NCBI GenBank assembly: GCA_009839745.1
Contig: VXPE01000036.1
Location: 130,763 to 194,762 of the forward strand
DNA: 64,000 nucleotides
Direction of reading: 5' to 3'
Source: Candidatus Poribacteria bacterium
GTDB taxonomy: Bacteria; Poribacteria; WGA-4E; WGA-3G
Below are positions 7,013 through 61,427 of the stretch, one piece after another; position 1 is the first letter of the stretch; each line of letters starts with the position of its first letter. The translations under genes and the position numbers were made by a program. A model generated the notes under the pieces. It had not been told where the DNA came from and ran no database searches. It saw only the letters and a list, made by a program, of their open reading frames with translations.

Positions 7013-7023
7013 ATGGTGTTTGG

Positions 7024-7056
7024 ATCGCTGGACACGACGAAATCGTGTCCAGCGAT
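7024..7056 (+). terminator. Perfect stem-loop after the outer-membrane protein gene
   Basis: A perfect 14-bp stem (arms 7024-7037 and 7043-7056, core TCGCTGGACACGA) with a 5-base loop lies 12 bases after the stop codon. The T-run is weak, so it may act as an RNA-end stabiliser as well as a terminator. The remaining sequence to 7333 is AT-rich and contains nothing else I can name. Confidence 0.75.
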
Positions 7057-7333
7057 TTCGCGTCTCGCTATATCACCTGTTTTTCCATTTTCCGTAAGGT
7101 TTGAATATAAGACGTAACTTCTTAAACACTCAGGTGTTATTAACGAGAATGGTGTTTAAACGGTGGGCGTGGTTTTTGATCGCTCTTACCCGACCTAAAA
7201 ACTTCTGTATTTTTTGAATTGCTCACGTGTTAGCAAAATTGAGTTGTTGGGCGAATTCCGACAACATCTTATGAGATGACTTGTAAAACTTGCCAGTGTA
7301 TTTGGTAAGTTATCCTAAGGAGGATCAGAACGA

Positions 7334-8326: not shown

Positions 8327-8431
8327 TCTTGGAACGTTGGAACGGGCGGGTACTTCACTCGCCCTCTCCTAATAGGCTACCAGGCCCTTACGCCTTAGCC
8401 CTGGTCTCATTACGAGAAAGGAGACTTTGAA

Positions 8432-8884
8432 ATGCAAGCACAAGCTGGTGAAGCCAAATTGAGTCTACTTGCGACCAAGATTCGGGAACGCAAGCCACCA
8501 ACACTCAGTATGGCACCTATGATCGATTGTGTGTTCCTGCTCCTGATTTTCTTCATGGTATCGACAACCTTCTCGCCGATTCCGGGCCTTCGGGTACAGT
8601 TGCCCCCACCGGGGAAACCCTCACCCGATAAACCGAAAGGTTTGACTGTCCGAATCGCAAACCCGGAACCCAGTGAGGACAGAGGCACGATGGTGCTGAA
8701 CGATGAGGTCGTCCAAATTGATGAAATGTTCAATCGATTCATCAATGCCCCTGAAGAAGCGACAAGTATGCTCATTATCCAATCCGAACGAGAAGTGCTA
8801 CATGAGCAGATCGTGCAAGTGATGGATATCGCGAAACAGGCAGGTATAGATAAAATCGGGTTCGCTATTGTCGCGCGAGATTGA
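8432..8884 (+). CDS. ExbD/TolR-family protein (first copy)
   Basis: 150 aa; ribosome-binding site GAAAGGAG. Short cytoplasmic N-terminus, then the conserved segment MAPMIDCVFLLLIFFMVST (about residues 28-46), whose Asp is the proton-coupling residue of ExbD/TolR, then a periplasmic domain. It partners ExbB (ending about 105 bases upstream) in the energising complex of the inner membrane. The second ExbD follows after 53 bases. Two ExbD paralogues per ExbB suggest a mixed dimer, as proposed for other diderms (inference). Confidence 0.92.
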   Translation: MQAQAGEAKLSLLATKIRERKPPTLSMAPMIDCVFLLLIFFMVSTTFSPIPGLRVQLPPPGKPSPDKPKGLTVRIANPEPSEDRGTMVLNDEVVQIDEMFNRFINAPEEATSMLIIQSEREVLHEQIVQVMDIAKQAGIDKIGFAIVARD

Positions 8885-8937
8885 CGTATCTGACGCGACG
8901 ATAATAGCACTCCACTCTCTATAGAAGGAGAATTCAG

Positions 8938-9360
8938 ATGGCTTTGAACATGTCTCGGCGGAAGAAAACAGGCGACGATGATGACATCCCGATGGCACCA
9001 ATGATCGATTGTGTCTTTTTGTTGCTGATTTTCTTCATGGTGTCTGCTGTTATGCGGGTTCCTCCGCCTTTCACTGTCACCTTACCCGATTCCGCAACTA
9101 AACACGAGTTCACACGGAAGAAGTATAATCTCTTCATTAGTGGTGACGGACGGATTTCCATCGATGACCAAGAGATGTTGACCCTGGAAGATATGGAACT
9201 TTTTATTGCAGCGCATGAAAATCAGATCAGCACTCTAATTATCAAGGCAGACAAGCGTGCGAAACACGGTGTCGTCATTGATGTGGTGGAACGAGCGAAA
9301 CAACGCTCCAGTAAAACGGAGGGGCTTGAAATCGCTTTCGCGGTCTCGGAAGAGGACTGA
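8938..9360 (+). CDS. ExbD/TolR-family protein (second copy)
   Basis: 140 aa; ribosome-binding site AGAAGGAG before the ATG. It has the same signature as its neighbour (MAPMIDCVFLLLIFFMVSA, residues 19-37, with the conserved Asp) after a short basic N-terminus, then a periplasmic domain. It is the last gene of the exbB-exbD-exbD unit and is followed by a strong intrinsic terminator. The two ExbD copies are similar at the membrane helix but diverge in the periplasmic half, so they are likely functionally distinct paralogues. Confidence 0.92.
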   Translation: MALNMSRRKKTGDDDDIPMAPMIDCVFLLLIFFMVSAVMRVPPPFTVTLPDSATKHEFTRKKYNLFISGDGRISIDDQEMLTLEDMELFIAAHENQISTLIIKADKRAKHGVVIDVVERAKQRSSKTEGLEIAFAVSEED

Positions 9361-9380
9361 AAACTGCAATGCAGTTAACA

Positions 9381-9408
9381 AAAAAGGCAGCTTCGGCTGC
9401 CTTTTTTT
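9381..9408 (+). terminator. Intrinsic terminator with UUCG tetraloop
   Basis: A5 run, then GGCAGC-TTCG-GCTGCC, then T7. It is placed 20 bases after the exbD stop. The flanking A and T runs make it work on both strands, so it can also serve the converging gltB transcript. Confidence 0.93.
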
Positions 9409-9460
9409 ATTATATAGACTGTCAGGTAGACTTCTGGTGCTTATCCTGCAGTTGCGTTTT

Positions 9461-13954: not shown

Positions 13955-14208
13955 TTCTAAACTGACTCTCCATACATTCTTCTTTATTTTTTTGCATTGG
14001 CATTGTAGAGCGGGCTTTCCATCCCTCGCCATTTTGTATTTAATCTGCGGGGCGAGGTTTGCGCGTCTTAGCCCTGCTCCTTTTTATGAAGGATACAAAC
14101 AATCAGAAAACGGATTTCGTTTTCAGGGGTGGATAGGATGTTTTTAAGGCTTAAATCGGATGCTGACTCCTCATATCCTACCAGAGGTAGCGCGCCCCAA
14201 GGCAAGAG

Positions 14209-14250
14209 CACCTTTGAAATCAGCAGCGATCCGCGATCGCGTCAAAGGTG
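14209..14250 (-). other. Nested hairpin in the gltB leader
   Basis: Arms CACCTTTGA (14209-14217) and TCAAAGGTG (14242-14250) enclose a second perfect stem GCGATC/GATCGC with a 3-base loop. It sits in the roughly 370-base untranslated leader between the promoter at 14329-14357 and the gltB start. A second hairpin, GAAAACG/CGTTTTC, lies near 14107-14125. A regulatory RNA is possible; no known riboswitch class was recognised. Confidence 0.5.
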
Positions 14251-14328
14251 ATTCGCGACTGGCGTGGCGGGTTACATGCTTCGGTTCAGTCCTCAATCTT
14301 TGAGCCGAAACCGTCTGTTCACTTTAAT

Positions 14329-14357
14329 ATTATACCCTAATTTAAGCCAAAAGTCAA
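14329..14357 (-). promoter_or_regulatory. Sigma-70 promoter for gltB
   Basis: On the minus strand TTGACT (14357-14352), 17-base spacer, TATAAT (14334-14329). It lies between the end of ggt and the gltB leader and gives a transcript with a leader of about 370 bases. Confidence 0.75.
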
Positions 14358-14372
14358 AAAAATCCTCTTGCC

Positions 14373-15983
14373 TCAATAGCCGACAGCACACCCATCTCGT
14401 CTTGGATCTGAACCTGCGATCAGCGTGCCGAAGGATGGGTTGATGAAAATTGCTTGTCCTCCCCCAAAAAAAGTGTTTCCGGGTATGATATGATGTCCTT
14501 TTTGTGCCAAAGCCGCTTGTGCATTCATTGGAATGCCTGCCTCCAGCATAATCCGCGAGTCATCCATCACGCGAAACCGAGGTGCGTCTAATGCGTTTTG
14601 CACGTCCATATTGAAATCCACCAGGTTGCATACGAATTGTAAATGTCCTTGTGCTTGCATCTGTCCTCCCATAACACCAAAGGTGACTAAGGGCACTCCG
14701 TTTTGCGCAATCATGCCAGGGATAATCGTATGCAGTGTGCGTTTATGTGGCGCAATACAATTCGCGTGGTCGGGACTCAACGAAAAACCCGCGCCTCGAT
14801 TTTGTAACATAATTCCCGTGTCTCCAGCAACTAACCCTGAACCAAAACCCGCGAAGAGACTGTTGATAAAAGAGACGACATTTCGTTCGCTGTCAACCGC
14901 ACAGAGATACACCGTATCGCTTCCCATTATTGGCATACCTGGGCTTGACTGCTCGTTTGCTCGTTCCGGTGAGATGCGCTCTCGCTGGCTTTCTGTATAA
15001 TCGTTGGACAAGAGTCCGTCTACTGGGACATCCACAAACGTCGGATCCGTCACGTATTCGTAGAGGTCTGCAAATCCTAATTTCATTGCCTCAATTGCAT
15101 GGTGTAAATGTTCAGGACTGTTATGCCCCATCATTTCGAGTTCAAATCCTTCAACGATGTTGAGTGCGAGGAGTGCAGCGATTCCCTGTCCATTTGGGGG
15201 TATTTCATAAACATCGTAGCCTCGATAATTAGTAAAAATCGGTTCTACCCAATCTGACGTGTGTTCAGTAAAGTCGCGTTGCGTAAATAAACCTCCGTTT
15301 TCATCGGAGAATTTCACGATTTTGTCAGCAATTTCCCCTTGATAGAAGGCATCGCGTCCGCCTTCTGCGATCAACCGAAATGTCCGTGCAAGGTTTGGTT
15401 GATAAAAGATTTCCCCGGGTGTCGGTGCCTTTCCATTCTGGAGGTATGTCCGTGCTGTGTCAGGATGCTGCGCCAACATCTGCGCACTTTCTTGCCACGC
15501 CAGACTAATCTGTGGACTGACAGGAAATCCTTTTTCCGCGTAATTGATGGCAGGCTGAAGGACCTCTGATAGCGACATTGTTCCGCATTCGTCGAGGAGT
15601 GTTGCCCATCCGTCAATTGTCCCAGGGACAGTGACGGGATACATACTCCCAAAAGCAGGAATGTTCATCAATCCCTGCTTGGTAAAGACTTCTGGCTCTG
15701 CGGCATAAGGTGCTCTACCGCTCGCATTTAAACCGCGAATTACCCCCTCTTTGGGTTGATAGACGAGCATAAAGGCATCGCCGCCGATGCCGGTTGACAT
15801 TGGCTCAACAACGTTAAGAATTGCGGCAGTCGCAACCGCTGCATCAACGGCGTTTCCACCCTTCTGTAAAATCTGCAACCCACCCTGCGCTGCGAGCGGT
15901 TGACTCGTCGCAACTGCCCCGTGTTGGCAGATGACAGCTGAACGTCCAGGTCCAAATTGGTTTGGGGAGTACCCATCAAACAT
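14373..15983 (-). CDS. ggt: Gamma-glutamyltransferase (GGT family Ntn hydrolase)
   Basis: 536 aa; ribosome-binding site AGGAGAAG before the ATG. It has the N-terminal signature GGNAVDAAVATAAILNVVEP and MSTGIGGDAF. The autoprocessing site and Thr nucleophile are expected at SDTVYLCAVD (about residue 355), followed by NSLFAGFGSGLV and the substrate-binding region. The family cleaves gamma-glutamyl bonds (glutathione and analogues) and self-cleaves into two subunits. No clear signal peptide is present, so a cytoplasmic location is possible. The neighbour gltB produces glutamate; a functional link is only suggestive. Confidence 0.9.
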   Translation of the reverse strand: MFDGYSPNQFGPGRSAVICQHGAVATSQPLAAQGGLQILQKGGNAVDAAVATAAILNVVEPMSTGIGGDAFMLVYQPKEGVIRGLNASGRAPYAAEPEVFTKQGLMNIPAFGSMYPVTVPGTIDGWATLLDECGTMSLSEVLQPAINYAEKGFPVSPQISLAWQESAQMLAQHPDTARTYLQNGKAPTPGEIFYQPNLARTFRLIAEGGRDAFYQGEIADKIVKFSDENGGLFTQRDFTEHTSDWVEPIFTNYRGYDVYEIPPNGQGIAALLALNIVEGFELEMMGHNSPEHLHHAIEAMKLGFADLYEYVTDPTFVDVPVDGLLSNDYTESQRERISPERANEQSSPGMPIMGSDTVYLCAVDSERNVVSFINSLFAGFGSGLVAGDTGIMLQNRGAGFSLSPDHANCIAPHKRTLHTIIPGMIAQNGVPLVTFGVMGGQMQAQGHLQFVCNLVDFNMDVQNALDAPRFRVMDDSRIMLEAGIPMNAQAALAQKGHHIIPGNTFFGGGQAIFINPSFGTLIAGSDPRRDGCAVGY

Positions 15984-16055
15984 CTATCTTCTCCTACTTT
16001 CAGACTGATATCACTGTAGCACACCCCATGTTTTTTGTCAAATGTGGAGAATTCC

Positions 16056-16192
16056 GTCCATATTTCACAGATTTTTAGGAATTCTCAGGAAAAAATTGAA
16101 AAAAATTACGAAAATTTCTAAAAATTCTGTCAAAAATGCAAATTAGGACTTAACTTTTGCAGTTTCATGTCTATATTAATAGATAAGGGAAG
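16056..16192 (+). repeat. Promoter block, copy A (direct repeat of 20452-20585)
   Basis: This 137-base AT-rich block recurs at 20452-20585. Identical stretches include AAATTTCTAAAAATTCTG and a 28-base segment around the -10 element ending AGATAAGGGAAG. It contains TTAACT (16150-16155), a 16-base spacer and TATATT (16172-16177), so it is probably the promoter and regulatory region of the secreted-protein operon starting at 16317. Upstream of it, 15984-16055 holds nothing recognisable. Confidence 0.8.
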
Positions 16193-16316
16193 GCAAAACC
16201 TTCTCCAAACGAAATGTAGATAGGAACGAGTTGGCTTCGACTCTACATAAGTAATAATTGCTAACCCGCTTTGTGGACTACACGCAAGCACCACAAGTGA
16301 AAAAAGGAGAACGAAA

Positions 16317-16871
16317 ATGCGAAAAATCAAATCCAAAACCCGACTCGCGATAGCACTGCTGATTGGTGGATTCGTTCTTGCGAGTATGATGCTTTCAAAA
16401 GCCATCGGAGCACCCCGGGTAGACCCTTCAGCAAGTGACAATCTTAAAGAGAAATATGAGAATGTGTTTGTAGATGTGGAAAATAGAACAGCAGCCGTTT
16501 GGCTGAATGGATATATGCACGATGATAATGGAAATCGGATTGGTTACGTTGGTATCTATACAGGTCTGTCTGTTTACACAGACGCGAATCAGCAACTGGT
16601 AGCCTATTATTATGCAGACGCTACAAGCCAAATTGTGGACACAAATCTCAATGGAAGAGCCAATGCCTGGGTTAAGGTTCCCAATAAAGCTAGAGTCGGA
16701 CAAGGGCATGACATTATGGTGGGGCGGAATCACCCTGTAAACTCCGTGACCGTATCGGATAGCAATACCATCCCTGCAAATCTAGCTGGTGGTAAGGCTA
16801 TGAGGGCCTCTGCAGCATTTGGGCACGACGGGACTCGGGTGAGTGTTAGGTGTGATGTAACAGGTATTTAA
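16317..16871 (+). CDS. Secreted protein of unknown function
   Basis: 184 aa; ribosome-binding site AAAGGAG. A basic n-region (MRKIKSKTR) and a hydrophobic segment (about residues 10-30, ending SKAIGAP) form a signal peptide or anchor. The remainder is a small, probably beta-rich domain (TAAVWLNGYMHDDNGNRIG, YYYADATSQIVDTNLNGRANAW) without a family I recognise. It is the first gene behind the repeated promoter block and probably shares a transcript with the lipoprotein and two PD40 genes downstream. Role unknown; an extracytoplasmic location is likely. Confidence 0.7.
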   Translation: MRKIKSKTRLAIALLIGGFVLASMMLSKAIGAPRVDPSASDNLKEKYENVFVDVENRTAAVWLNGYMHDDNGNRIGYVGIYTGLSVYTDANQQLVAYYYADATSQIVDTNLNGRANAWVKVPNKARVGQGHDIMVGRNHPVNSVTVSDSNTIPANLAGGKAMRASAAFGHDGTRVSVRCDVTGI

Positions 16872-16937
16872 TGGATTATATCCATATCACAGGAACGAGA
16901 TAAAAGTTCACACAACGTACAAGGAGATGCTAATCTA

Positions 16938-17432
16938 ATGTATTACATCCGTATCGTAGCAACTCTTTTCATTATCACCTTGAGTCTCTTCTGGCAGCCA
17001 GGGTGTAAACAGGATGAGGGCACTTCGCTCTCATCCACATCTCATTCGTTTTTTCTTGAAAAACATAATAAGAAGGCGGCTGTAAAGGTGACAATAGGCG
17101 GAAAAGTGTGGAAAATCGATCCAAATATTTCCTATCAAGCAACAGGGGTGTGGACGAATCCAAATCCACGTTCGCTAACAGAGTCAGAAACGGAAAGGAT
17201 CCAGAAAATTCCAGCACTGATCCAAACATTAGAAACGCAACTTGATGAACTCGACAAGGAGTTGAGATACCTCAAGCGACTCGACCAGCCCCATATAAAA
17301 ATCCATTATAATTTTGGCAAACCACCCCACTTTTCACGGCAAGGCAAGATAAAAATGATTGACTTAGGTGAATTCCCTATGGAAATGGACCTCCCCGCTA
17401 AAATCCCATCAGGACAAGAGGAGAAACCATGA
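16938..17432 (+). CDS. Small lipoprotein with coiled coil
   Basis: 164 aa; ribosome-binding site AAGGAG. The signal peptide ends in a lipobox-like FWQPGCKQ (Cys near residue 23). A helical stretch, IPALIQTLETQLDELDKELR (about residues 94-113), reads as a short coiled coil; no known domain is seen. The stop overlaps the start of the next gene (ATGA at 17429-17432), showing translational coupling with the PD40 protein. A periplasmic partner of that propeller is a reasonable but untested idea. Confidence 0.7.
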   Translation: MYYIRIVATLFIITLSLFWQPGCKQDEGTSLSSTSHSFFLEKHNKKAAVKVTIGGKVWKIDPNISYQATGVWTNPNPRSLTESETERIQKIPALIQTLETQLDELDKELRYLKRLDQPHIKIHYNFGKPPHFSRQGKIKMIDLGEFPMEMDLPAKIPSGQEEKP

Positions 17433-18412
17433 AATACGTTTTCATCAGTTTCTATCTTTGTTTCACGGTGCTGCTTCCATTTGCAACAACACAAGCGGAA
17501 CTTACTGGGGAAGTTATCTTTGGACATCCTGAGCATTTCGACGAACTCTGGATGACACACGTAGAGGATCCCCGCGCCGCCCACAAGATTTTTTCAGACC
17601 CCGTAGAAGCAATTGGGAAATTTTCCGTGCAAAAAGGAGGGTCCCTCCTCGTCTTCATTTCTTTCAGAGGGATAGTCGCGGACATCCACCTTTTTGATAG
17701 AACGCAGCCTCGTCGAAAAACACGTAACCTCACAAAAGGCTTGTTTGATGGGATTTCCGATGTCGCTATCTCAAAAAACGGAGATGTCGCCTTTACCACG
17801 GCACTCTTAGATCCACCGGAGGCTCGGGGCATTTATCTCATTCCACATCGTGAACTCCAACGCAACCTTCCCGCAGCAACCCTGTTAAAACACGTGTCTG
17901 CCTCTAACGTCGAGTGGTCACCAAATGGCAGGGAAATTGCCTATGCCACCGTCTCCGAGGTTTTTCTGTTGAATCCGTTCACCGGCAAGAGTTTACGGGT
18001 CTCAAGGACGGGGACGGTTCCCGCGCTCTCACCTAATGGTCAAAAAATCGCGGTCGCTCACGCTTTTTGGCCCGCCCCTCGCGAAAACCATCTGAGCATT
18101 CTCTCCCTGGCAAGCCTGCAACCGGTGGCACACATAAAAGTGAAAGACATTCCAGAGGACGCGGTTGGCTGGTGGGGCTTGTCCTGGTCCCCGGATGGAC
18201 AGTATCTCATTTACACGATTTTCACTAAGAATTTCCAATCATTTCAGAATACCGCCGTGCCTATTTCCGGGGCCCCCCAAGAACGGGTTTTTGAGAAACT
18301 ACCTGGGGGCGGCGTGCCAGAGTTCGATTGGACAAACACGGCATACGCCGTTGAACCGACCGACCGAATTACAACACTCTGGGGCGCGTTGAAAACAGAC
18401 GATTTAAAATGA
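17429..18412 (+). CDS. Secreted PD40/TolB-like propeller protein
   Basis: 327 aa; the start overlaps the previous stop, with GAGGAG upstream. Signal peptide residues 1-23 (ending TTQA). Degenerate PD40 repeats follow: VEWSPNGREIAYAT, PALSPNGQKIAVAH and LSWSPDGQYLIYT. These Ser-Pro-Asp-Gly blades build a beta-propeller that usually binds proteins or peptides. The C-terminus ends ITTLWGALKTDDLK, matching the tails of the PD40 proteins at 18442 and 57751. The repeats are fewer and weaker than in the next gene. Likely periplasmic; substrate unknown. Confidence 0.75.
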   Translation: MKYVFISFYLCFTVLLPFATTQAELTGEVIFGHPEHFDELWMTHVEDPRAAHKIFSDPVEAIGKFSVQKGGSLLVFISFRGIVADIHLFDRTQPRRKTRNLTKGLFDGISDVAISKNGDVAFTTALLDPPEARGIYLIPHRELQRNLPAATLLKHVSASNVEWSPNGREIAYATVSEVFLLNPFTGKSLRVSRTGTVPALSPNGQKIAVAHAFWPAPRENHLSILSLASLQPVAHIKVKDIPEDAVGWWGLSWSPDGQYLIYTIFTKNFQSFQNTAVPISGAPQERVFEKLPGGGVPEFDWTNTAYAVEPTDRITTLWGALKTDDLK

Positions 18413-18441
18413 AACTTTCACCGGACAGAAGGAGGAACATA

Positions 18442-19479
18442 ATGAACTGTCTAAAAACCTCTGTTCTTTCACGAATAATAAGGTTTTTCTTTACGTGCTG
18501 TCTGTTCTATCTCGCCGGGGATCTAACTTCAATAGAGGCGAAGATCGTGTTTTGTGTCGATGATGATATTTACGTTATGAACGATGGCGGCTCCCGCAGA
18601 CGCAGGCTCACGCACAGCACGCAGGCGACACACCGGTATCCCCGCTGGTCACCCGATGGGAAGCGGATCGCTTTTACCAAATACTTGGACAAAACGAAGA
18701 GCCAAACCACGGCGGAAGTGTTCGTCATGAACGCAGATGGAACAGACCCGCAACGCCTCACCCATAACAATGTCCTCGATACAGATCCGTCCTGGTCACC
18801 AGATGGCCAACACATCGCCTTTTCAAGTACGCGTAGCGAAAGTTGGGAGATCTTCGTCATAGAAGTAGCGACGCGCACTGTCAGGCAAATAACAGGTATT
18901 GAAGGTGAGACAGATTCGGCAGCACCCGACTGGTCCCCAGATGGCACACAGATCGTTTTTGAGCGGTTCATTGACATTGAAAACGGGATCGTCCCGAAAA
19001 CCATCTACGTGATGTCCGCGGACGGACAGAACCAACGCCCTGTTCTCCGAGATCCACCACGCAATGGACCCCTCACGTTGCGGTACTTCCCTCGCTGGTC
19101 GGCAGATGGACAACGTATCCTCTTTTCTGAATCCAAATGGTTTGAGAAGGGGGATGTCGAGAAACTCATTATTCAACGGATCGGCGGCGGGAAACAGGAA
19201 ATAACGGATATTAATGACAGACTTGGAAACAATTGGATGAGTACAAGTACGTGTTGGATGGAGAATGATCGTGCGCTTCTCATCTCACTGATGTTAAAGG
19301 ATAAACCGAACCCAAATTATAACCTCTATCGTTATGGGCTCGAGACACGGAGTCTGAAACGTTTGACACGTGAGCCGAGCGATGAGACGTGGCCCGATTG
19401 GACTGAAGGCTCTTTATCCGTTTCACCACACGGAAAGTTGAGTACGCTCTGGGGCGAACTCAAGAAGACTGACTACTAA
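18442..19479 (+). CDS. Secreted PD40/TolB-like propeller protein
   Basis: 345 aa from the ATG at 18442 behind AAGGAGG (the frame is open from 18409). Signal peptide about residues 1-33, ending SIEA; then KIVFCVDDDIYVMNDGGSRR and successive PD40 blades with the SPDG core (WSPDGKRIAFTKY, WSPDGQHIAFSST, WSPDGTQIVFERF, WSADGQRILFSES). The C-terminus LSTLWGELKKTDY carries the LWGxLK tail shared with two other propellers here. A truncated, frameshifted copy of this gene lies at 21802-22004. Family proteins bind peptides or partner proteins in the periplasm; the specific role is unknown. Confidence 0.8.
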   Translation: MNCLKTSVLSRIIRFFFTCCLFYLAGDLTSIEAKIVFCVDDDIYVMNDGGSRRRRLTHSTQATHRYPRWSPDGKRIAFTKYLDKTKSQTTAEVFVMNADGTDPQRLTHNNVLDTDPSWSPDGQHIAFSSTRSESWEIFVIEVATRTVRQITGIEGETDSAAPDWSPDGTQIVFERFIDIENGIVPKTIYVMSADGQNQRPVLRDPPRNGPLTLRYFPRWSADGQRILFSESKWFEKGDVEKLIIQRIGGGKQEITDINDRLGNNWMSTSTCWMENDRALLISLMLKDKPNPNYNLYRYGLETRSLKRLTREPSDETWPDWTEGSLSVSPHGKLSTLWGELKKTDY

Positions 19480-19543
19480 AGTGAAAAGTCTGAAAACTCA
19501 AGAGAGTTCTCTTATTGAAACGTGAAAGTTTCTGATTTTAGTT

Positions 19544-19613
19544 TTGGCTTTTTTTCGTTAAATAAAGTATAATAGATTCATCATAGCGAATATTTGGTGT
19601 CTCACCAATATTC
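19544..19613 (+). promoter_or_regulatory. Promoter and inverted repeat upstream of the sigma-like gene
   Basis: TTGGCT (19544-19549), 18-base spacer, TATAAT (19568-19573). Just downstream, GAATATTTGGTG (19588-19599) and CACCAATATTC (19603-19613) form an inverted repeat with one bulged base. It lies at about +10 to +35, where a repressor operator or 5' hairpin would fit. Confidence 0.55.
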
Positions 19614-19657
19614 AATGGATGCAGAACTCGTATTTTTCTCAAAGAGGAGGGTAATTC

Positions 19658-20311
19658 ATGACATTGAGATGTCATCAATCCAAAGGCACAAAATGCCCGC
19701 GTTACATACATCAAGGATTTTTTCGTCCTACTGATGAAATGGTAAAACCGCTCTTACCAGATTTGCGCCGATGTGCGGCGTGCATAGCGTCCGCTGCCCC
19801 GCAACGTTTCGACCTCCGAGACGACTTATTCCAAGTCGCTTCCCTAACCCTCATCGAAAAGGGACCTGCGTTCAATCCAATACATCAGAGTGGCGCGAGT
19901 TTCGGGACCTTTATTCGCCCGCGTATCTGTGGAGCCTTGACGGATGGGAAAAAACGGGAACTCACCCATAGCCATCGCGAACATCCTATTTTTGAAGGCA
20001 CATGGGATTCATCCGAAGATACTGAAACTGAAGGCAATCAGGACATCGGATGGTTGTGGGAGGTGCCAGACGCTCACGCTGAATTTGAGACGGCACTCGT
20101 TCGGGACATCAGTTTTGCGACTGCGTTGCCGAAACTCCTAAAAATACTAACACCCCGCGAACGAGAAATCTTCGCTTGCCTTCGTGAGAATCAACAGAAT
20201 TGCGAGATTGCTGAGGCGTTGACGATCTCTGAAGCGCGTGTCAGCCAACTGGTGAAACAGGTAACCCTGAAACTGACAAACGCAGGCCGACACCTGGGTT
20301 TGGCGGAATAA
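19658..20311 (+). CDS. Divergent sigma-70-family factor
   Basis: 217 aa; ribosome-binding site GAGGAGG. The N-terminus holds Cys pairs (CHQSKGTKC, RRCAAC) that could bind a metal. Residues about 50-105 resemble sigma region 2 (DLRDDLFQVASLTLIEKG, SFGTFIRPRICGALTDGKKR). Residues about 160-212 are a clear region 4 helix-turn-helix (LTPREREIFACLRENQQN, ISEARVSQLVKQVTLKL). It lies between two promoter blocks of near-identical sequence, so it may direct transcription from them (inference). No adjacent anti-sigma gene was seen. Confidence 0.75.
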   Translation: MTLRCHQSKGTKCPRYIHQGFFRPTDEMVKPLLPDLRRCAACIASAAPQRFDLRDDLFQVASLTLIEKGPAFNPIHQSGASFGTFIRPRICGALTDGKKRELTHSHREHPIFEGTWDSSEDTETEGNQDIGWLWEVPDAHAEFETALVRDISFATALPKLLKILTPREREIFACLRENQQNCEIAEALTISEARVSQLVKQVTLKLTNAGRHLGLAE

Positions 20312-52550: not shown

Positions 52551-52616
52551 ATAGAAATGCGATTTTGCTATCATCTCGCCTATCTTCGCGGGATTTGCCA
52601 AGTTTTTTCTCGGAGT

Positions 52617-52955
52617 ATGGGTTATAGGAAACGAGATAAAAAAACGGATAGTATAGTGGAGACAGAAGCCACTTATGCCATCCAGGCACCGGCACATCAA
52701 CAACCCGATAATCAAACCATCGCCAAAGAACACTTCGAAATCGTCCGCGGTATGGTAGAACGCCTTCCGAAATCAGAGAAAGAAGTGTTTCTATTGAAAT
52801 TTACAGCTCCCGACATGTCCCTCAAAGAGATCGCCGAAACGTTACGCATCTCAGAGAATGCTGTTAAGGTTCGGTGGCATCGAGCAAAGAACACGTTGAA
52901 AACCTGGCTCGAAACTGAATATCCGGAGGAATTTACCGATTGGTTCAGCAGGTAA
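52617..52955 (+). CDS. Sigma-70 region-4-only protein
   Basis: 112 aa from the ATG at 52617; the frame opens at 52557 (132 aa). It contains a complete sigma region 4 helix-turn-helix (LPKSEKEVFLLKFTAPDMS, LKEIAETLRISENAVKVRWH; about residues 45-85), typical of ECF sigma factors, but no region 2. It may be a truncated sigma factor, or a stand-alone regulator. It is 76 bases upstream of the RRE-glycosyltransferase gene and on the same strand, so it may regulate that cluster (inference). Confidence 0.6.
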   Translation: MGYRKRDKKTDSIVETEATYAIQAPAHQQPDNQTIAKEHFEIVRGMVERLPKSEKEVFLLKFTAPDMSLKEIAETLRISENAVKVRWHRAKNTLKTWLETEYPEEFTDWFSR

Positions 52956-53030: not shown

Positions 53031-54668
53031 GTGCAAAAAATGCGACATCGATATACACTTATAGAATTCCAAGAAAACGCGTATTTAGCAGATTTAGAGT
53101 ACCATCGCCTTTTACCTGTTGATGAATTGGTGCAAGACGTATTTGAGCGACTTGAATCGGATACCGAAGAGATCGTTTCTGACTTAGCCGACACGTATAC
53201 TGAGGCTGAGATTCGTAATTGTCTCCAGTACCTTCATTGGCCCCAGGAGCAACGTTTCTCAAAAACGCTGGAGGCACCGTCTTTTAAAATCTTCGCGCCG
53301 AGATTACATTCAACGCATGAACAATTGAGATGGAACACGTTAGGTGCCTCTGTTGCCCACATTGAATTGCTGAAGGCGTTATCGAAATACGCCACAATTC
53401 ATGTAACTCAGGAATTTGAGGACATGGAGAATATGGTTCTGATGCCTTTCAATATTCATGAGAAACCGTCTGCTTATCGGATGATCAAAGAGAATTATGA
53501 TGGTGTTTTGTTGTGGTATCTTGACGAAGTTGAGATGATGTCCGCGCTCAATTATCTCCACGTGCCGGTTGTCTTGCCTATCTACGCCGCACGTCGCGAT
53601 AATGGACGAATTATCAATCGGATGATGCACTGGTATGCTTCGATGCGGCATTTCGATGCCTTCATGACACTCACCCAACCGACGATTGACTTGTATTCGA
53701 CATTCATTGAGGACACCTCATTGTTTCATATTGTGCCTTGTGGTGTGGATACCGATTTTTTCCAACCCGCAGATAAAATACAGGCAAAACAGAAAGTTGC
53801 GGAATTATTAGGGAGACCTGAAATTACCGAGAAGCCCGTTGTTGGATACATCTCAAGATTTGAGGTTGAAAAAGGCGCGGGAGTTTTTATGGATGTCGCT
53901 CGTTTGATGCCGGAAGTTTTCTTTGTGGCCGCAGGTCGGATAGAAGACACCCATCGCTACGATTTTCCAGAAAATCTCGTTCACAGTGGGAGACGTCCGC
54001 GCGAAGAGTTACCTGTTCTCTATAACGCCTTTGACGTGTTCTGTTTCCCAAGTCTTGCGTGTTCTGAGGAGTTCGGGTTGGTGGTTCTTGAAGCGATGGC
54101 GTGTGGAACTGTGCCAGTGGTATCCAGTTACGATGGTCCGAAATACGTGGTAAAAGACGCAGGAGTCGTTGTGCCTGCAATGCTGTATGGTCGTGATATG
54201 ACGGGGCTCGGTGGCGGGATTTTGGCTGAGGACTTTGCCGAAGCGATTATGGAACTTTTACAAGACGATGCCCAAAGACACAAACTTGCTGAAAAAGGAA
54301 GACAGCGGGCACTTGAGCTCACATGGGACAACAGTGCCAAATGCCTCCTACGGGTTTTTCAAGAACTGAATGCGAAAAAACATCTCGTTAGGCAGAGATC
54401 TCACATGCCGATAGGTTTTGGTCTCAACGAAAATGTAGATGGGACTGTTAATCCGAAGGCAACGATTATCAATGCCAGACGCGAAGGCAATACGCCCCTA
54501 ACGGGGACTCTCTACGATACATCCGTAGAAGAAGGAATCGCCCTATCGCTTTTACAAAATCATAGTATGCCTGAGATTGAGGTGATCCTTTCCGCCTTGT
54601 TGGCAGATGACGATGCGGTAGCAGAACATCTCGATCGCTTGAAGGGATTCATGAGGGCATTGTTCTAA
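53031..54668 (+). CDS. GT-B (GT4-like) glycosyltransferase with N-terminal RRE/PqqD-like domain
   Basis: 545 aa from the GTG at 53031 (AGGG upstream; ATG at 53040 is an alternative). Residues about 6-70 have the winged-helix pattern of PqqD-like RiPP recognition elements (NAYLADLEYHRLLPVDELVQ, TYTEAEIRNCLQYL). Residues about 85-470 form a GT-B fold with GYISRFEVEKGAGVF, SGRRPREELPVLY and the EX7E motif in EEFGLVVLEAMACGTVPVVS (Glu 346 and 354). A short helical domain closes the protein (about 500-545). GT4 enzymes are retaining and use nucleotide sugars. An RRE fused to a glycosyltransferase implies a peptide acceptor, perhaps the Cys-rich protein at 59292. The RRE call is by pattern only. 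Confidence 0.75.
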   Translation: MQKMRHRYTLIEFQENAYLADLEYHRLLPVDELVQDVFERLESDTEEIVSDLADTYTEAEIRNCLQYLHWPQEQRFSKTLEAPSFKIFAPRLHSTHEQLRWNTLGASVAHIELLKALSKYATIHVTQEFEDMENMVLMPFNIHEKPSAYRMIKENYDGVLLWYLDEVEMMSALNYLHVPVVLPIYAARRDNGRIINRMMHWYASMRHFDAFMTLTQPTIDLYSTFIEDTSLFHIVPCGVDTDFFQPADKIQAKQKVAELLGRPEITEKPVVGYISRFEVEKGAGVFMDVARLMPEVFFVAAGRIEDTHRYDFPENLVHSGRRPREELPVLYNAFDVFCFPSLACSEEFGLVVLEAMACGTVPVVSSYDGPKYVVKDAGVVVPAMLYGRDMTGLGGGILAEDFAEAIMELLQDDAQRHKLAEKGRQRALELTWDNSAKCLLRVFQELNAKKHLVRQRSHMPIGFGLNENVDGTVNPKATIINARREGNTPLTGTLYDTSVEEGIALSLLQNHSMPEIEVILSALLADDDAVAEHLDRLKGFMRALF

Positions 54669-54689: not shown

Positions 54690-56321
54690 ATGATACAGTT
54701 TCCCATTCATTTAAAAGCACACAAAAGGTTCAATGATGCCGGACATACCTTTGTTGCGGACATAGAAGCGGCGTGTATCTTTGAAGTCAATGAGCTAGTA
54801 TCCGAGGTCCTTGATATCTGTGAAGGCTCCACGACAGCACAAGTAAAGGCGGCATTGCGCTCGAAATATCAAGAATCTGAGATTAACCAAGTTTTCGCTT
54901 ACCTCTTTCAGCTGCAAATGGCAGGGATATTGTTTCATCAGACATCGGTGATAGATAAGGAACGTATAGAATTCTCGGGAAAGATTGTTGTTTCACCGAG
55001 TTTTCTGTATCGGCTGGATCAAAAGTCGTTTCTCACACGCGTCGCCTACCATCAGTTGTTCCGGGCACTTTCCAAAAGGTTAGAAGTCTTTATACCTACT
55101 ATCAATACAGAAGGTCTCCCGACAAATTTCGACTGGGAAAGAGTCACCCCCTTAGAGATACCCACCGAGGTGGGACAGAATGTGATCGGATACTATCCAG
55201 AGGACTGTCATGGGGTATTAAGTTTACCACATTCCATGGATCATGATGTTTCATTAGCATACTCGTCTCGGATCCCAACGATATTTTATGTATCGAGTGC
55301 CGAACCCGATAGACAGTTGATTTTGGATAAGTTCTTTCTCCTTCGCGATTGCGATGTGTTATGTGTCGATTCGTGGTGGTTGAAAGAGTATCTGGCACAA
55401 TTTGTGTCTGATACAGAGAGAATTGTCGTGTTGCCTGTAGGTGTTGATGGGGACGTTTATACACTGAAAGATGCGAATGAATCTAAGTTAATGCTCGCCG
55501 GAGCGTTTGAGAATGCGCGTATGAAATCGGATCCGCTGATACTCCTGTTTTTGCCGAATGCAAGTTATGAAAATCGGAATTTGGTTCATCTGCTTGCTCG
55601 GACGCATCCCGAGTGCCTCTTTATCGTTGTAGGCGGTATGGATTGTTCGCAACTCGGTCATGATTGTGAAAATATTGAATACTTTCAGATTGAGGACATC
55701 ACGGATTATCAAGCTTTACCGGTTATTTATAATGCTGCCGACTTAGGGTATTACGCCGCCGTCCCGGGTGCCAATGGTTTTTATCTCTCGAGTGCCTTAT
55801 ATTGCGGGACTTCGATGATCCTTTCCGGGGCACATAACAACAGCACGATGCAAACGTTAGGTGCGTATCTCCACATCCCCGCCAATACACCACCTGTTGA
55901 AACGGCTGACATCGTTTCAAAATCTCTCACCGCCTTGCTGGCGGATCCATCTGTGCTGGCACACTACAGGGATGTCGCCATTCGTAAGGGGAGAAGTTTC
56001 ACGTGGGAGGCTGTCGCGAAAGCACTCAAAAACCAGTTTATCTCGCTTCAGGAGAGAGTGCCTGAAGCGGCAACCACCGGGACGCATCCCCTCTCTTTCT
56101 TTCAGTATCACTATGACACGATACAGGGAAAAACGACCCCTGCTGCGTATGAAAGACCTGCTTTTCTCCGCGAGGATGTGAAAAGTGCCATTGCGAAAGA
56201 ACTGATGCAGGCACATTCCATCAATCAGGTTTCCGTTGTTCTTGAACATATCTGTAAAGATGCAAGCACTGCAGAAGAGATACGCAAATATCTCTCTATA
56301 GGAAGGATGCCGCATGAGTAA
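54690..56321 (+). CDS. GT-B-like protein with N-terminal RRE/PqqD-like domain and degenerate active site
   Basis: 543 aa. Residues about 8-85 fit the RRE pattern seen in radical-SAM peptide maturases (HKRFNDAGHTFVADIEA, FEVNELVSEVLDICEG, KYQESEINQVFAYLFQL, GILFH). The rest aligns in layout with the preceding gene. However, the EX7E region has become GANGFYLSSALYCGTSMILS (about residues 360-379), lacking both Glu. It is therefore probably a non-catalytic partner. The C-terminal helical module (VKSAIAKELMQAHSINQVSV, about 496-540) parallels that of its neighbour. A 21-base gap separates the two genes and the next gene overlaps by 8 bases. Confidence 0.72.
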   Translation: MIQFPIHLKAHKRFNDAGHTFVADIEAACIFEVNELVSEVLDICEGSTTAQVKAALRSKYQESEINQVFAYLFQLQMAGILFHQTSVIDKERIEFSGKIVVSPSFLYRLDQKSFLTRVAYHQLFRALSKRLEVFIPTINTEGLPTNFDWERVTPLEIPTEVGQNVIGYYPEDCHGVLSLPHSMDHDVSLAYSSRIPTIFYVSSAEPDRQLILDKFFLLRDCDVLCVDSWWLKEYLAQFVSDTERIVVLPVGVDGDVYTLKDANESKLMLAGAFENARMKSDPLILLFLPNASYENRNLVHLLARTHPECLFIVVGGMDCSQLGHDCENIEYFQIEDITDYQALPVIYNAADLGYYAAVPGANGFYLSSALYCGTSMILSGAHNNSTMQTLGAYLHIPANTPPVETADIVSKSLTALLADPSVLAHYRDVAIRKGRSFTWEAVAKALKNQFISLQERVPEAATTGTHPLSFFQYHYDTIQGKTTPAAYERPAFLREDVKSAIAKELMQAHSINQVSVVLEHICKDASTAEEIRKYLSIGRMPHE

Positions 56322-57435
56322 ATACGATATTCTGTTAGCAACGATTGCTGTGGGTTTTTGTCTCTGGGCGACATATACCGATATGAGAACCGGGAAAATA
56401 AAAAATGCCTGTTCTATTGGGTTGTTATACGCGGGTGTGATTTCACAAGTGATGTTCCTGCTGCTCGAGAAAACAATCATTAGCGCAAGCCTCTCTGTTT
56501 TTATCATCGGTGGGATCATCGCCTTCGGAAGTTACTGGCTGGGGATCCTTGCCCCCGGAGATGCGAAACTCTATTGGGGAATTGTCATGATATTGCCCCC
56601 TTCTGTCTGGGGTAGAAACCTTTCTGCGTTTCCGAACCCCGCATTGATTATCTTAGTGAATATGTTCAGTGTCTATTTGGTGTATAGTCTCATCCATACA
56701 GGGATCAAGTATTTCACGTTACACAAGACGTTCGCACTTCCGAGAGCGCTTCCTGTTAAGGAATTCATACAACAACTCCCGGAAAATCTCTTGTCCTTGC
56801 TCCGTTTTTTGGCGATCCTGCTCTGTGTAGAATTCTTCGCGTATCAATCGCGAAGTCAATTCACTTTTTTTCATCTCATGCTGGCAATTCTTTTATCCTA
56901 CGGACTTGACCGTGGCACGAAAAAGTTCCAGATCAAAGCCTATATTTCTTATCCCGTGTATTTCATCCCTGCGGTTGCCATTTTTATATTCTATCCTATT
57001 CTTCTATTGGCATATTGGAAAAAGTTTCTGTTGTTTGCAGTCGTCTATCGTTTGGTTCTCCCCCTCATTAGCACGTACATGCTGCAATTGGATATGTCGT
57101 GTCTGAGCACATTTGTGCCGATTGAGCAGCTTCACCCCGGTATGATTCCGGCAGAGAAGATCATCAGAACGGATACAAATGACGGAACTTTGTATAGGAA
57201 AGAGCCAGCGTTCGTTTCAGAGTCCTTTGATAAAAATGTGCTTATTTCACCTACCCCGGAAGGGTTGTCTGATGAAAGTGTTCAGGCCCTCAAGGCGTTG
57301 GGGAAGTCGGGGTGTTTTGACGATTTCGGGGGCACCTTGGCGATCCAACATTCGGTACATTTCGCACCCATCATTCTAACAGGAACGCTTCTGACGATTG
57401 TGTGTGGAGGGGTCTTTTATGCCCCAATAATTTAA
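56314..57435 (+). CDS. A24-type (prepilin peptidase-like) membrane aspartyl protease
   Basis: 373 aa; overlaps the previous gene by 8 bases with AAGGA upstream. Membrane protein with about eight to ten helices. Two Asp motifs match the A24 family: YTDMRTGKIKN (Asp 23) and LAPGDAKLYWG (Asp 83). The cytoplasmic methylation/zinc domain of PilD is absent, as in shorter A24 enzymes. A soluble C-terminal region follows (about 260-345). No pilin or type II secretion genes are near, so cleavage of a cluster-specific precursor leader is a plausible role. Tight coupling to the two RRE proteins supports a shared pathway. Confidence 0.75.
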   Translation: MSKYDILLATIAVGFCLWATYTDMRTGKIKNACSIGLLYAGVISQVMFLLLEKTIISASLSVFIIGGIIAFGSYWLGILAPGDAKLYWGIVMILPPSVWGRNLSAFPNPALIILVNMFSVYLVYSLIHTGIKYFTLHKTFALPRALPVKEFIQQLPENLLSLLRFLAILLCVEFFAYQSRSQFTFFHLMLAILLSYGLDRGTKKFQIKAYISYPVYFIPAVAIFIFYPILLLAYWKKFLLFAVVYRLVLPLISTYMLQLDMSCLSTFVPIEQLHPGMIPAEKIIRTDTNDGTLYRKEPAFVSESFDKNVLISPTPEGLSDESVQALKALGKSGCFDDFGGTLAIQHSVHFAPIILTGTLLTIVCGGVFYAPII

Positions 57436-57750: not shown

Positions 57751-58728
57751 ATGAAAAGAATACTTGCCTATATTGTAGTGTCGGGAACGGCACTACTCTT
57801 CGGGCATTTCTGGATCCCGTTGAACCTGTCTGTCTATGCAGTCGATGTTCGGTATATTGCTTTTAGTTCCAATCGGAGTGGAAATTATGACATCTACATG
57901 ATCGATATAAATGGTGAAAATCTCCAGAATATAACAAACCACCCAGCGAATGATTCTGCACCCACATTTTCGCCGGACGGACAGCGGATGGCTTATGTTT
58001 CCTCTCGGGGCGGCGATTGGGACATTTATGTGATGAATCTCAGGACAAAGGTATCCGAGCAGTTGACGGATCATCCCGGACAGGACGAGGGGCCCGCATG
58101 GTCTCCAGATGGACGATGGATTGCATTTAATTCTGATAGAGCCGGGATAGATAATATTTACAAAATCGCGCCCAGTGGTGCAAATCTCCAACAGTTGACG
58201 CACGGGGATCAGAAGAACATAACCCCGTCTTGGTCCCCTGATAGCCAATTCATCGCACTTCGTTCTTCCGGAGTCCGTCTTGGATCTCCCTCGAGCATCT
58301 CTATAATAGATGCGGATGGAGGTAATCTCAGCAGGCTCAAAAACCAACCCAGCGAGCACGTATATATGCCCGCATGGTCTCCGGATGGCAAACGAATCGC
58401 CTTTAGTGCGAATTTAGGAGGAAACGTGGATATCTACACCGTAAACGTTGACGGGAGTGATCTCAGACGGATCACTCGCCATACGGCACTGGATTCGTCG
58501 CCCGCTTGGCACCCGGATGGACACGCTTTTATTTTTTCTTCCATGTGGGACCAAAAGTTTGCCATCTATCGCATAGATGTGGCGGGCACCAATCGCCGGC
58601 GATTGACACCCCATCGGACACAAGATTTGCATCCAACGTGGGTGCCCACAGGCTTTTTTTCAGTCTTTCCTCTGATCAACTCACAATCAGTCTTGTGGGG
58701 TAGACTCAAGCAGTCTGTCAGTGACTAA
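57751..58728 (+). CDS. Secreted PD40/TolB-like propeller protein behind the sigma-54 promoter
   Basis: 325 aa; GAGGG 7 bases before the ATG. Signal peptide about residues 1-30 (ending SVYAVD). Six regular PD40 blades with the SPDG core: FSPDGQRMAYVS, WSPDGRWIAFNS, WSPDSQFIALRS, WSPDGKRIAFSA, WHPDGHAFIFSS and a terminal half-blade. The C-terminus SQSVLWGRLKQ shares the LWGxLK tail with the two propellers at 17429 and 18442. Likely periplasmic, probably a binding partner for a peptide or enzyme of the cluster. The propeller is complete and more regular than the other two. Confidence 0.85.
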   Translation: MKRILAYIVVSGTALLFGHFWIPLNLSVYAVDVRYIAFSSNRSGNYDIYMIDINGENLQNITNHPANDSAPTFSPDGQRMAYVSSRGGDWDIYVMNLRTKVSEQLTDHPGQDEGPAWSPDGRWIAFNSDRAGIDNIYKIAPSGANLQQLTHGDQKNITPSWSPDSQFIALRSSGVRLGSPSSISIIDADGGNLSRLKNQPSEHVYMPAWSPDGKRIAFSANLGGNVDIYTVNVDGSDLRRITRHTALDSSPAWHPDGHAFIFSSMWDQKFAIYRIDVAGTNRRRLTPHRTQDLHPTWVPTGFFSVFPLINSQSVLWGRLKQSVSD

Positions 58729-59291: not shown

Positions 59292-59612
59292 ATGCGAAGT
59301 CATTTACATCAACGAGTCAACCGTAAAGTCTCTCACTTTATCCTGGGTGAAGAAGGTAAAGTGGGGAGCCGGAGTGCGTTTACTGCCGCAGCCGTCATCG
59401 GTGCGACATCGTTAGCCGGAATGTTCCTCAGTCCACCTAAGGCATCTGCAGATTGGTGGTGTAGTGATATTCAATGTCATGACGACGACCAATGTTGTGG
59501 ATGTTGGGATGAGCACCTCAATGATCCCTGGGAAAACTGTACCCAAGGGGATTACGACTGCAGGAGTGCAGACTATGTTCCGACTCCAGGTATCTCTTGC
59601 TGGACAAAGTAA
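59292..59612 (+). CDS. Cys-rich precursor-like secreted protein (candidate RiPP precursor)
   Basis: 106 aa from the ATG at 59292 (AGGAG 8 bases upstream). Residues 1-53 form a long basic leader (HFILGEEGKVGSRSAF) and a hydrophobic segment (32-46) ending at an AxA site (KASA/D). The 53-residue remainder has eight Cys (57, 62, 68, 69, 71, 83, 90, 103), twelve acidic residues, few basic ones and several Trp (DWWCSDIQC, CCGCWDEHL, NDPWENC). Disulfide, thioether or glycan modification is possible; Ser and Thr are few (Ser 58, 92, 102; Thr 84, 98, 105). No family recognised. Context: two RRE-type proteins, an A24 protease and a propeller upstream. Confidence 0.75.
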   Translation: MRSHLHQRVNRKVSHFILGEEGKVGSRSAFTAAAVIGATSLAGMFLSPPKASADWWCSDIQCHDDDQCCGCWDEHLNDPWENCTQGDYDCRSADYVPTPGISCWTK

Positions 59613-59746: not shown

Positions 59747-60031
59747 ATGTCAAAATATGGCACTTTCTATGTCGTAACAGTAAATCCGGGAGTTAGACCA
59801 GGCCGTTTAAAGAAGTTTCTGTTAACAGAATGGTTTATCGCCCTTCAGTCCACTTCAGGGTGTCTTGATGTAGAACTTTGGGAAAGCCAACGTAGTCGCG
59901 GTCGTTATTTGGTGTGTGAACTCTGGGAGAATAAAGACATCAGTCTTCAGAACTCCGAGAAACTCTGGAATGAGGAGAAGAAGGATGTCTTTGAAACACT
60001 AAACTTATACGGAACAATAAAATCCGATTAA
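59747..60031 (+). CDS. ABM-fold (antibiotic biosynthesis monooxygenase-like) small protein
   Basis: 94 aa; ribosome-binding site GAGGAG. One dimeric alpha-beta-barrel domain: strand FYVVTVNPG, helix RLKKFLLTEWFIAL, strand GCLDVELWES, strand RYLVCELWENK, helix NSEKLWNEE. Enzymes of this fold act on quinones, haem or polyketides without a metal or cofactor. Here it could modify the peptide or a redox partner, but no catalytic residues are diagnostic. It lies between the peptide gene and the cytochrome-like gene. Confidence 0.75.
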   Translation: MSKYGTFYVVTVNPGVRPGRLKKFLLTEWFIALQSTSGCLDVELWESQRSRGRYLVCELWENKDISLQNSEKLWNEEKKDVFETLNLYGTIKSD

Positions 60032-60088: not shown

Positions 60089-61363
60089 ATGAAGAAAAAA
60101 CATCTCCTATGGATATTGCTGCTAACCGCGCTCGTGGCGACACCGCCGATCTATCACCGGTTGAGCGAGGCGCGTCGCTTAAAACAGATTAAGACAGTAA
60201 AACACGAGGCATCTCAAATCAACGCTGTTCCGTTGAACGAGTTCATGGCAAGGTTGAAGGGTGCCTCACCGGAAGAGACGTTACTCGTGCTGTATACGGG
60301 CAGCACACACGGACATCTTGAGCCGTGTGGCTGCTTCATCGGTCAATCGGGTGGGCTGCCGCGGCGTGCGACTGCACTCGCGTCTATTCGATCTCAGGGA
60401 TTTTCTCCGTTGTTGGTAGATCTGGGTGGTGTTCTCCCGACTCAAGACTCCAAGATGCAGGAGGATCTTCTGACATCTCCCAATGATGCCGTAGCCGAAA
60501 CACTTGCGCCTCCTGCGGTGCTCCCATTGGACTATCTGAGGACACAGAAGATGCTGGAATCAATGCGATTGTTGAAATATGAGGCACTCGTCCCCGATAA
60601 AGCGGATATGATTTGGGGTGAGGACGTTCTGACAGGGACACTCGCTCACCAAGCGTTTCCGATCCTTACCACCAATATTGAGGGATTCGGCGGCAATGTT
60701 CAATCTCTTCTGACCAAAAACGTGGGGAATAAAAAAGTGGCAGTGTTAGGGCTTTCATCGCTGGGACTTGAAGACACAACTCTCACGGAACTCGCCCCTC
60801 TTTTTTCTGAAATACAGAAGCAAGTCGACGTTATCGTTATCCTGAGCAATCTGTCCCCGGAAGTGAACCGGACGATAGCTGAAAAGTATCAGAGCGTTTC
60901 AGCGATTTTGAGTCCTGGAACCGGAGAAACAGAAAACGTGGGAAATGTGCTTCTCGCTTATAGTGGTGTCAACGGGGAAACCTTGGGGGCACTGCTGCTG
61001 AATGTGGGGGACACTTTAGGTGCCTCGGCACAACAAATTGCACTGACCGAGGATGTGGAAGACGACACACAAATCAGGGAACTTTTGCTGGACTTCCATA
61101 CGCAAGTCGCCACTGACCCACAATTGCAAGCGGGCGGTGAACGTCTGTTTTCTGATGAAGCACTCGAGCAGGATCCCCGAAGTGGTTACGTCGGTTCTCA
61201 GGCGTGTGCGACCTGTCACCGAAAGGAGTTTGATCAGTGGGCACACACGTCCCATGCGACCGCCTTTAATACACTCTTGACAGTAGGGAAACAGTTTTAT
61301 CCCGAATGTGTCTCCTGTCATGTCAATAGAGACGGGTTCCTTTGTAGCTACTTTTGCGTTTAG
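60089..61363 (+). CDS. UshA-like protein with C-terminal c-type haem motifs, truncated
   Basis: 424 aa from the ATG at 60089 (AAAAGGA upstream). N-terminal signal anchor (LLWILLLTALVATPPIYH). Residues about 65-330 match a 5'-nucleotidase/metallophosphatase-like layout (LLVLYTGSTHGHLEPCGC, GQSGGLPRRA). Near the C-terminus two haem-c sites appear (CATCHRKE near 379, CVSCHVNRD near 410). The protein ends 9 residues after the second site (FLCSYFCV), whereas related multihaem cytochromes continue with more CxxCH motifs, so the end looks truncated. Probably a periplasmic electron-transfer or haem-dependent enzyme. No CxxCH was seen downstream in other frames. Confidence 0.7.
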   Translation: MKKKHLLWILLLTALVATPPIYHRLSEARRLKQIKTVKHEASQINAVPLNEFMARLKGASPEETLLVLYTGSTHGHLEPCGCFIGQSGGLPRRATALASIRSQGFSPLLVDLGGVLPTQDSKMQEDLLTSPNDAVAETLAPPAVLPLDYLRTQKMLESMRLLKYEALVPDKADMIWGEDVLTGTLAHQAFPILTTNIEGFGGNVQSLLTKNVGNKKVAVLGLSSLGLEDTTLTELAPLFSEIQKQVDVIVILSNLSPEVNRTIAEKYQSVSAILSPGTGETENVGNVLLAYSGVNGETLGALLLNVGDTLGASAQQIALTEDVEDDTQIRELLLDFHTQVATDPQLQAGGERLFSDEALEQDPRSGYVGSQACATCHRKEFDQWAHTSHATAFNTLLTVGKQFYPECVSCHVNRDGFLCSYFCV

Positions 61364-61427
61364 CGTGAAGGGATAAACAGGAACACACAGATATTCGCAA
61401 AGACAAAATCAGACCGTGGATGAAATG

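Follow-up and report, generated by a model that had tools for sequence, protein, structure and literature searches.

Glycocins, e.g. sublancin and glycocin F, are disulfide-bonded, glycosylated ribosomal peptides, and their machinery comprises a GT2-type glycosyltransferase (GT) that is not known to carry an RRE (RiPP recognition element), a double-glycine leader and a C39 ABC exporter. GtfA/GtfB is a protein O-glycosyltransferase in which an active and an inactive GT4-type protein act as a pair on a secreted protein. In the bufferin (DUF2063-DUF2282) systems, Cys-rich RiPPs have a Sec signal peptide as their leader, and the RRE resides in a partner protein (PMC12452194, PMC12710340). In 2020, RRE-Finder (PMC7470986) listed fusions of an RRE with a glycosyltransferase as candidates for new RiPP clusters, and fusions of PF00535 with an RRE were reported in 2025 (PMC12710340); in the passages where these two texts bring them up, the fusions are given without a function, precursor, pair or mechanism.

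We analyzed a stretch of 64,000 nucleotides (the window) from a Candidatus Poribacteria genome, in which a small Cys-rich peptide is encoded at positions 59292-59612; this gene and the others of its cluster in the window lie on the + strand. As in the listed fusions, an RRE, as modeled, is joined to a glycosyltransferase; compared with what the cited passages present, the window system has an active/inactive GT4 (PF00534) pair, a precursor family, an A24 peptidase and propeller partners. The predicted end product, a disulfide-bonded glycosylated ribosomal peptide, would be like that of the glycocins, but the GT is a GT4 with an RRE and the leader is of the Sec type. A glycocin proper was rejected as a candidate, since the GT belongs to PF00534/GT4, the leader ends in AxA and no ABC exporter occurs among the annotated genes of the cluster. 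With bufferins the system shares a Cys-rich peptide, a Sec-type leader and an RRE in a partner protein, while the MNIO iron enzyme of the bufferin systems is absent from the window cluster. The active/inactive GT4-type pair is reminiscent of GtfA/GtfB, which, however, is not known to carry an RRE and has a large Ser-rich adhesin as its substrate. The closest known structure to the window RRE is CteB (PDB 5wgg, 5why), a SCIFF/ranthipeptide maturase that also has a Cys-rich peptide substrate; CteB is a radical-SAM, thioether-forming enzyme, whereas the window RRE is fused to a glycosyltransferase. No description of this system was found in the searched literature on Poribacteria with RiPPs, RRE-GTs or sorting signals.

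The peptide family and its cores

The peptide is a member of an undescribed Candidatus Poribacteria family. Its ORF of 106 aa, predicted to be secreted, starts with an ATG that has an AGGAG-type ribosome site just 5' of it. A single-sequence search recovered homologs in the same genome at E-values of 1e-7 and weaker, whereas by profile search this genome has about 21 copies and the family is carried by 40 of 84 Poribacteria genomes, several of which are incomplete. In the closest loci of other Candidatus Poribacteria, the peptide is 57-67% identical over its full length. Given these own-genome homologs and the orthologs in other Poribacteria, the ORF is not a chance one.

Alignments, a structure model and AxA enrichment delimit a leader (residues 1-53, 59292-59450), while the core (residues 54-106, 59451-59609), delimited by alignments, contains eight Cys in the order C-C-CC-C-C-C-C, twelve Asp/Glu and five Trp. 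According to alignments and model, the leader, which in the window peptide has GEEGKVGSR as its charged stretch, runs from a charged helix through the motif F-x3-E-x-G (F16, E20, G22) and a hydrophobic helix (26-46) to an AxA-type boundary. An earlier note, made from the sequence alone, had described a small secreted Cys-rich subunit with a long leader, consisting of a charged segment, a hydrophobic part and an AxA site, ahead of a core with eight Cys, twelve acidic residues and several Trp; this description holds, and all of the listed leader parts and the core composition were recovered.

F-x3-E-x-G is present in 79 of the 88 non-redundant peptides of the family, and A-x-A ahead of the first core Cys in 75 (shuffled mean 37). 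The number of Cys is even in 75 of the 88 cores, and mean column identity is 0.54 for the leader versus 0.40 for the core. Cores are as a rule short and acidic, and three of them lack both Ser and Thr, a point against the glycosylation proposed below. The Cys of the window subfamily are ordered C-C-CC-C-C, to which the window peptide adds two; most other cores contain four or six Cys with a C-x5-DC-P-x-G-x2-C-like spacing.

When Cys and Trp positions were aligned among homologs, as the earlier note had proposed, five of six close orthologs and paralogs matched the peptide at every one of the eight Cys, the sixth (L110b) being without two of them, and non-Cys core positions diverged among close orthologs keeping all eight. 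In the close orthologs and paralogs, leader dN was about 0.11-0.13 against a dS of 0.48-0.97, and core dN was 0.42-0.64, with core dS partly saturated; where dS is measurable, both leader and core are under purifying selection. Trp positions, on the other hand, vary across the family, and 20 of the 88 cores contain no Trp. Close orthologs keep only two, those of CxCW and of the final CW (retained by six of the seven closest peptides), and Trp richness is consequently not a characteristic trait.

This bears on the alternative to a natural product put forward in the earlier note, by which the peptide would be a redox-cofactor subunit (TTQ/CTQ type) paired with a propeller and a haem protein. The likeness to MauA consists of a small secreted Cys-rich subunit encoded beside a propeller gene and a c-type haem neighbor, the CxCW and CW pair of the closest peptides, and a nearby thioredoxin-like domain that recalls the helper MauD. 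Both of the flanking genes pointed out in the note are indeed conserved neighbors in other loci. The c-type haem protein is an UshA-like/c554/DsbA-like fusion instead of MauG, and the propeller is a generic one (PD40, kelch, BNR or LamG, depending on the locus), not a dehydrogenase heavy chain. The family differs from MauA by its lack of homology, of a family-wide Trp pair for TTQ and of MauG. Neither PF02975 (methylamine dehydrogenase light chain), nor any other cofactor-subunit family, nor any Pfam family at all was matched in the 44 peptides searched, and a genome-wide search with PF02975 was equally silent, but adds little as its controls were silent too. A radical-SAM maturase, the criterion for a QHNDH gamma subunit, was found by Pfam and NCBIfam in none of the window's cluster genes, TIGR03906 being matched weakly and by its RRE part alone. 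A MauA/QHNDH subunit was rejected on the missing family match and the unconserved Trp, and with so many cores free of Trp, a tryptophylquinone subunit is very unlikely. More informative are two neighbors that were left unweighed in the note, namely the pair of RRE-bearing glycosyltransferases and the A24 peptidase.

In a comparison with the knotted disulfide topology of inhibitor cystine knot mini-proteins, the subfamily showed the C-C-CC-C-C order, and the structure model of the peptide, of middling confidence (pLDDT 75, pTM 0.41), a three-strand core. Foldseek gave no significant match for this model (best E 6), and no credible sequence relatives were found in the PDB. For the search beyond the phylum, a narrower alignment (A6) was employed, as a broader one (A3) was too diverse for a genome scan; the results hence cover the window's own leader type only. 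The sole non-poribacterial match was on a contig (L113, QMTN01000045.1) filed under a 'Thermoplasmata' genome. As a poribacterial contig (L112) has the very same set of genes, an archaeal occurrence was rejected as a probable binning error.

The glycosyltransferase pair

Two adjacent GT4 genes are located upstream of the peptide. The first (53031-54668) was identified by Pfam GT4 (PF00534), RRE alignment and catalytic residues, and the second (54690-56321), whose residues 1-85 are modeled as an RRE, by a PqqD match, AlphaFold and Foldseek/VIA. In an alignment of 19 adjacent pairs, the active-site residues R, K and E-x7-E were kept in all first GTs, including that of the window, while R, K and the first Glu were lost in all second GTs, none of which has the GT4 active-site set. 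This suggests that a transferase is paired with a pseudo-enzyme and that both carry a putative RRE of their own.

The Pfam PqqD scores of the GT N-termini are below the curated cut-off, as is to be expected of divergent RREs (PMC7470986), and the RRE assignment therefore rests on structure. Built with 28 homologs, the AlphaFold model of residues 1-85 of the second GT is a three-strand/three-helix domain with a pLDDT of 93.8. Foldseek returned three significant matches, all of them CteB chains (5why, 5wgg); lasso-peptide RREs in complex with a leader ranked next. The match list of a second aligner consisted largely of RiPP recognition domains, with Z-scores of 11.3 for CteB, 8-8.7 for FusB1/TbiB1 and 7.3 for PqqD, and MccB and TruD were matched as well. 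Judging by this model and the RRE alignment, both GTs bear an N-terminal RRE domain.

In locus L024 (9886-10740, G000:C42), a single ORF joins the RRE part of a first-type GT to the C-terminal part of a second-type one, which looks like recombination of the pair or an assembly collapse.

Conserved neighbors of the peptide

A set of genes recurs in this and other genomes, i.e. a sigma factor, two adjacent GT4s, an A24 peptidase, an UshA-like/c554/DsbA-like protein and sometimes a methyltransferase. Peptide genes alternate in these clusters with secreted PD40, kelch, BNR or LamG proteins, and a PD40 or kelch propeller gene lies immediately upstream or downstream of 35 out of 42 peptides. The sigma gene of the window is a short sigma-70 region-4-like ORF (52557-52955), assigned by family grouping and by Pfam on intact relatives; other clusters have ECF sigma factors, often in the form of a fusion of about 990 aa with a BNR/sortilin-type propeller. 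Seven cluster proteins matched no anti-phage defense model in PADLOC, and a known defense system was thus discarded as a candidate.

The A24 (prepilin-peptidase type) aspartyl peptidase at 56314-57435, identified by Pfam and alignment, has both catalytic Asp motifs (D...K-x2-N and GD-x-KL), with D23 and G82-D83 invariant in nine homologs; its PF01478 score is just under the cut-off and that of Arc_PepC above it. Such an intact peptidase as a regular neighbor, together with the hydrophobic helix that follows the F-x3-E-x-G of most peptides and the retention of this leader in genomes without RRE-GTs, could indicate a pilin-like or membrane-anchored surface subunit. A24 would then cut after G22 (59355-59357) as in prepilins, the hydrophobic helix would stay in the membrane or form a filament with the Cys-rich part displayed, and the GTs would glycosylate a structural protein instead of making a RiPP. 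However, Lys/Arg and not Glu occupies position +5 after the Gly, an AxA boundary is enriched ahead of the core, and the annotated neighbors include no pilus genes. PF04964 (Flp/type IVb pilin) matched none of the peptides and nothing above cut-off in the phylum, with Caulobacter as positive control, which rules out an Flp pilin at the family level. We consider a pilin-like subunit fairly unlikely, and G22, the invariant Gly of the alignment, is in our preferred interpretation the proposed A24 cleavage point of a leader peptide.

Immediately upstream of the peptide is a secreted PD40/TolB-type beta-propeller (57751-58728), recognized by Pfam and by its C-terminal tail, a degenerate WGxLK (SVLWGRLKQ). 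Propellers of more than one fold (PD40, kelch) end in the tail K-L-x-T-x-W-G-x-[LIVMF]-K, of which there are 59 occurrences genome-wide, against none for a reversed-pattern control. WG-tail propellers in the window are found at 17429-18412, 18409-19479 and 57751-58728. From its sequence, this tail looks like an undescribed poribacterial sorting or anchoring signal.

Downstream, a small ABM-fold (antibiotic biosynthesis monooxygenase-like) protein is encoded at 59747-60031, as indicated by Pfam and synteny. It is kept in the syntenic locus L108, where its counterpart, also situated beside a peptide, is 79% identical. The UshA-like (PCGC)/c554 protein that follows (60092-61363) is truncated in comparison with its homologs, which reach 616-677 aa with more CxxCH motifs and, in intact copies, end in a DsbA-like domain. 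Compared with L108, the window gene ends at about residue 420 of 677 and continues directly into what is left of the methyltransferase gene, its final 15 codons (61326-61370, identified by tblastn), with about 1.6 kb missing at the junction. This is either a real deletion, by which the window cluster would be partly decayed, or an assembly error; intact relatives of the UshA-c554 protein are present elsewhere in the same genome.

Distribution and a proposed leader-guided pathway

Over the 84 genomes, 33 contain both peptide and RRE-GT, seven the peptide only, three the RRE only and 41 neither, the corresponding numbers for peptide and A24 being 35, five, three and 41; these counts ignore kinship. 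Genes for a phosphosugar mutase and/or a sugar nucleotidyltransferase were found in 11 examined loci, all with RRE-GT genes or RRE remnants, and were absent from the few GT-free loci examined, the unlabeled ORFs of the comparison loci being only partly annotated. In four genomes (G033, G042, G044 and G045), peptide, A24 and UshA-c554 are present and the RRE-GT is absent, so the GTs are dispensable in some genomes; the GT-free loci of G042 and G044 also show a propeller and a sigma gene. As the F-x3-E-x-G part of the leader is retained in RRE-GT-free genomes, another reader besides the RRE is needed, for which the A24 peptidase is, on sequence grounds, the obvious candidate.

Genomes with a peptide and no RRE-GT would also fit a secreted disulfide-rich mini-protein (antimicrobial, adhesion or signaling) that is not a RiPP, the RRE-GTs acting on e.g. 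the propeller or a glycolipid. The GT part is similar to MshA/BshA-type small-molecule GT4 enzymes, and the cores have weak, chance-level matches to small disulfide domains. Nevertheless, RRE domains are known as leader binders, the peptide and the RRE-GT pair are strongly co-occurring and adjacent, and the leader, conserved where cores vary, far exceeds the length of a plain signal peptide. Such a non-RiPP mini-protein thus appears unlikely.

Directly supported are the family, its spread and gene neighborhood, the RRE fold (from the model and its structural matches), the pairing of an active with an inactive GT, an A24 active site that is intact, and purifying selection. We propose, with a probability of about one half, that these genes produce RiPP-like mini-proteins that are recognized by their leader, glycosylated by the GT pair, exported by Sec and disulfide-bonded outside the cell; the RRE-guided glycosylation itself we hold to be about an even chance. 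In the cytoplasm, the RRE domains of both GTs would bind the conserved leader, and the first, active GT would attach a sugar to the core, with the second, having a GT4 fold without catalytic residues, possibly serving it as a scaffold or partner. Sec export would likely be directed by the leader's hydrophobic part. The A24 peptidase may cut the leader, the most probable site being directly behind the invariant Gly of the F-x3-E-x-G motif, and a signal peptidase cut at AxA would leave a core of some 20-55 residues. Outside the cell, the even-numbered Cys likely pair as disulfides, presumably aided by the membrane-anchored UshA/cytochrome/thioredoxin protein, and from gene adjacency the mini-protein could act together with the propeller or lectin encoded next to it, probably at the cell surface.

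Features by which RiPPs are recognized are found here, namely a short precursor whose leader is conserved and whose core varies, and an RRE domain, as modeled, in a co-encoded modifying enzyme. We class the system as a variant within the RiPP kind, and it would become a class of its own if the sugar were demonstrated. We tentatively suggest, as possible though short of probable, that a deep-branching uncultured phylum has a RiPP class of its own, i.e. Sec-exported disulfide-rich glycopeptides with an RRE-guided GT4/pseudo-GT4 pair, an A24 leader peptidase and a propeller or lectin partner at the surface. If true, this would provide a substrate and gene context for the RRE-glycosyltransferase fusions that were flagged and left unexplained, extend RiPP chemistry to GT4 glycosylation that is leader-guided and involves a pseudo-enzyme partner, and point to a role for A24 peptidases outside pili. 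Many members of this uncultured phylum are sponge symbionts. The richest genomes have about 20 peptides each, making this a strongly amplified multi-copy system in some Poribacteria, and it may therefore matter for the cell surface and for contact with host or neighbors.

A sister system in two genomes (G072 and G077; loci L114 and L116) shares leader, RRE-GT pair and A24 with the system described above, but has Cys-free cores of about 13-15 residues. An UshA-c554-thioredoxin gene was found neither in the sister-system locus nor anywhere in the genomes G072 and G083, which agrees with a disulfide role for the UshA-c554 protein. The sister-system loci (L114 3683-16898, L116 8466-19001) also encode a methyltransferase, a transglutaminase-like protein and an ABC-2 permease, and their cores end in an (I/V)xxI(I/V)A(I/T)-like sequence.

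Two regions of the contig G080:C2 (about 5000-20300 and 240300-258700) have identical match scores about 235 kb apart, which suggests a recent duplication of the whole cluster. Lastly, in L117 (4965-9656, G000:C63), a 963-aa UshA-c554 variant is accompanied by a PD40 protein and the C-terminal domain of an A24, and no peptide was found there; this arrangement is possibly an older form of the module.
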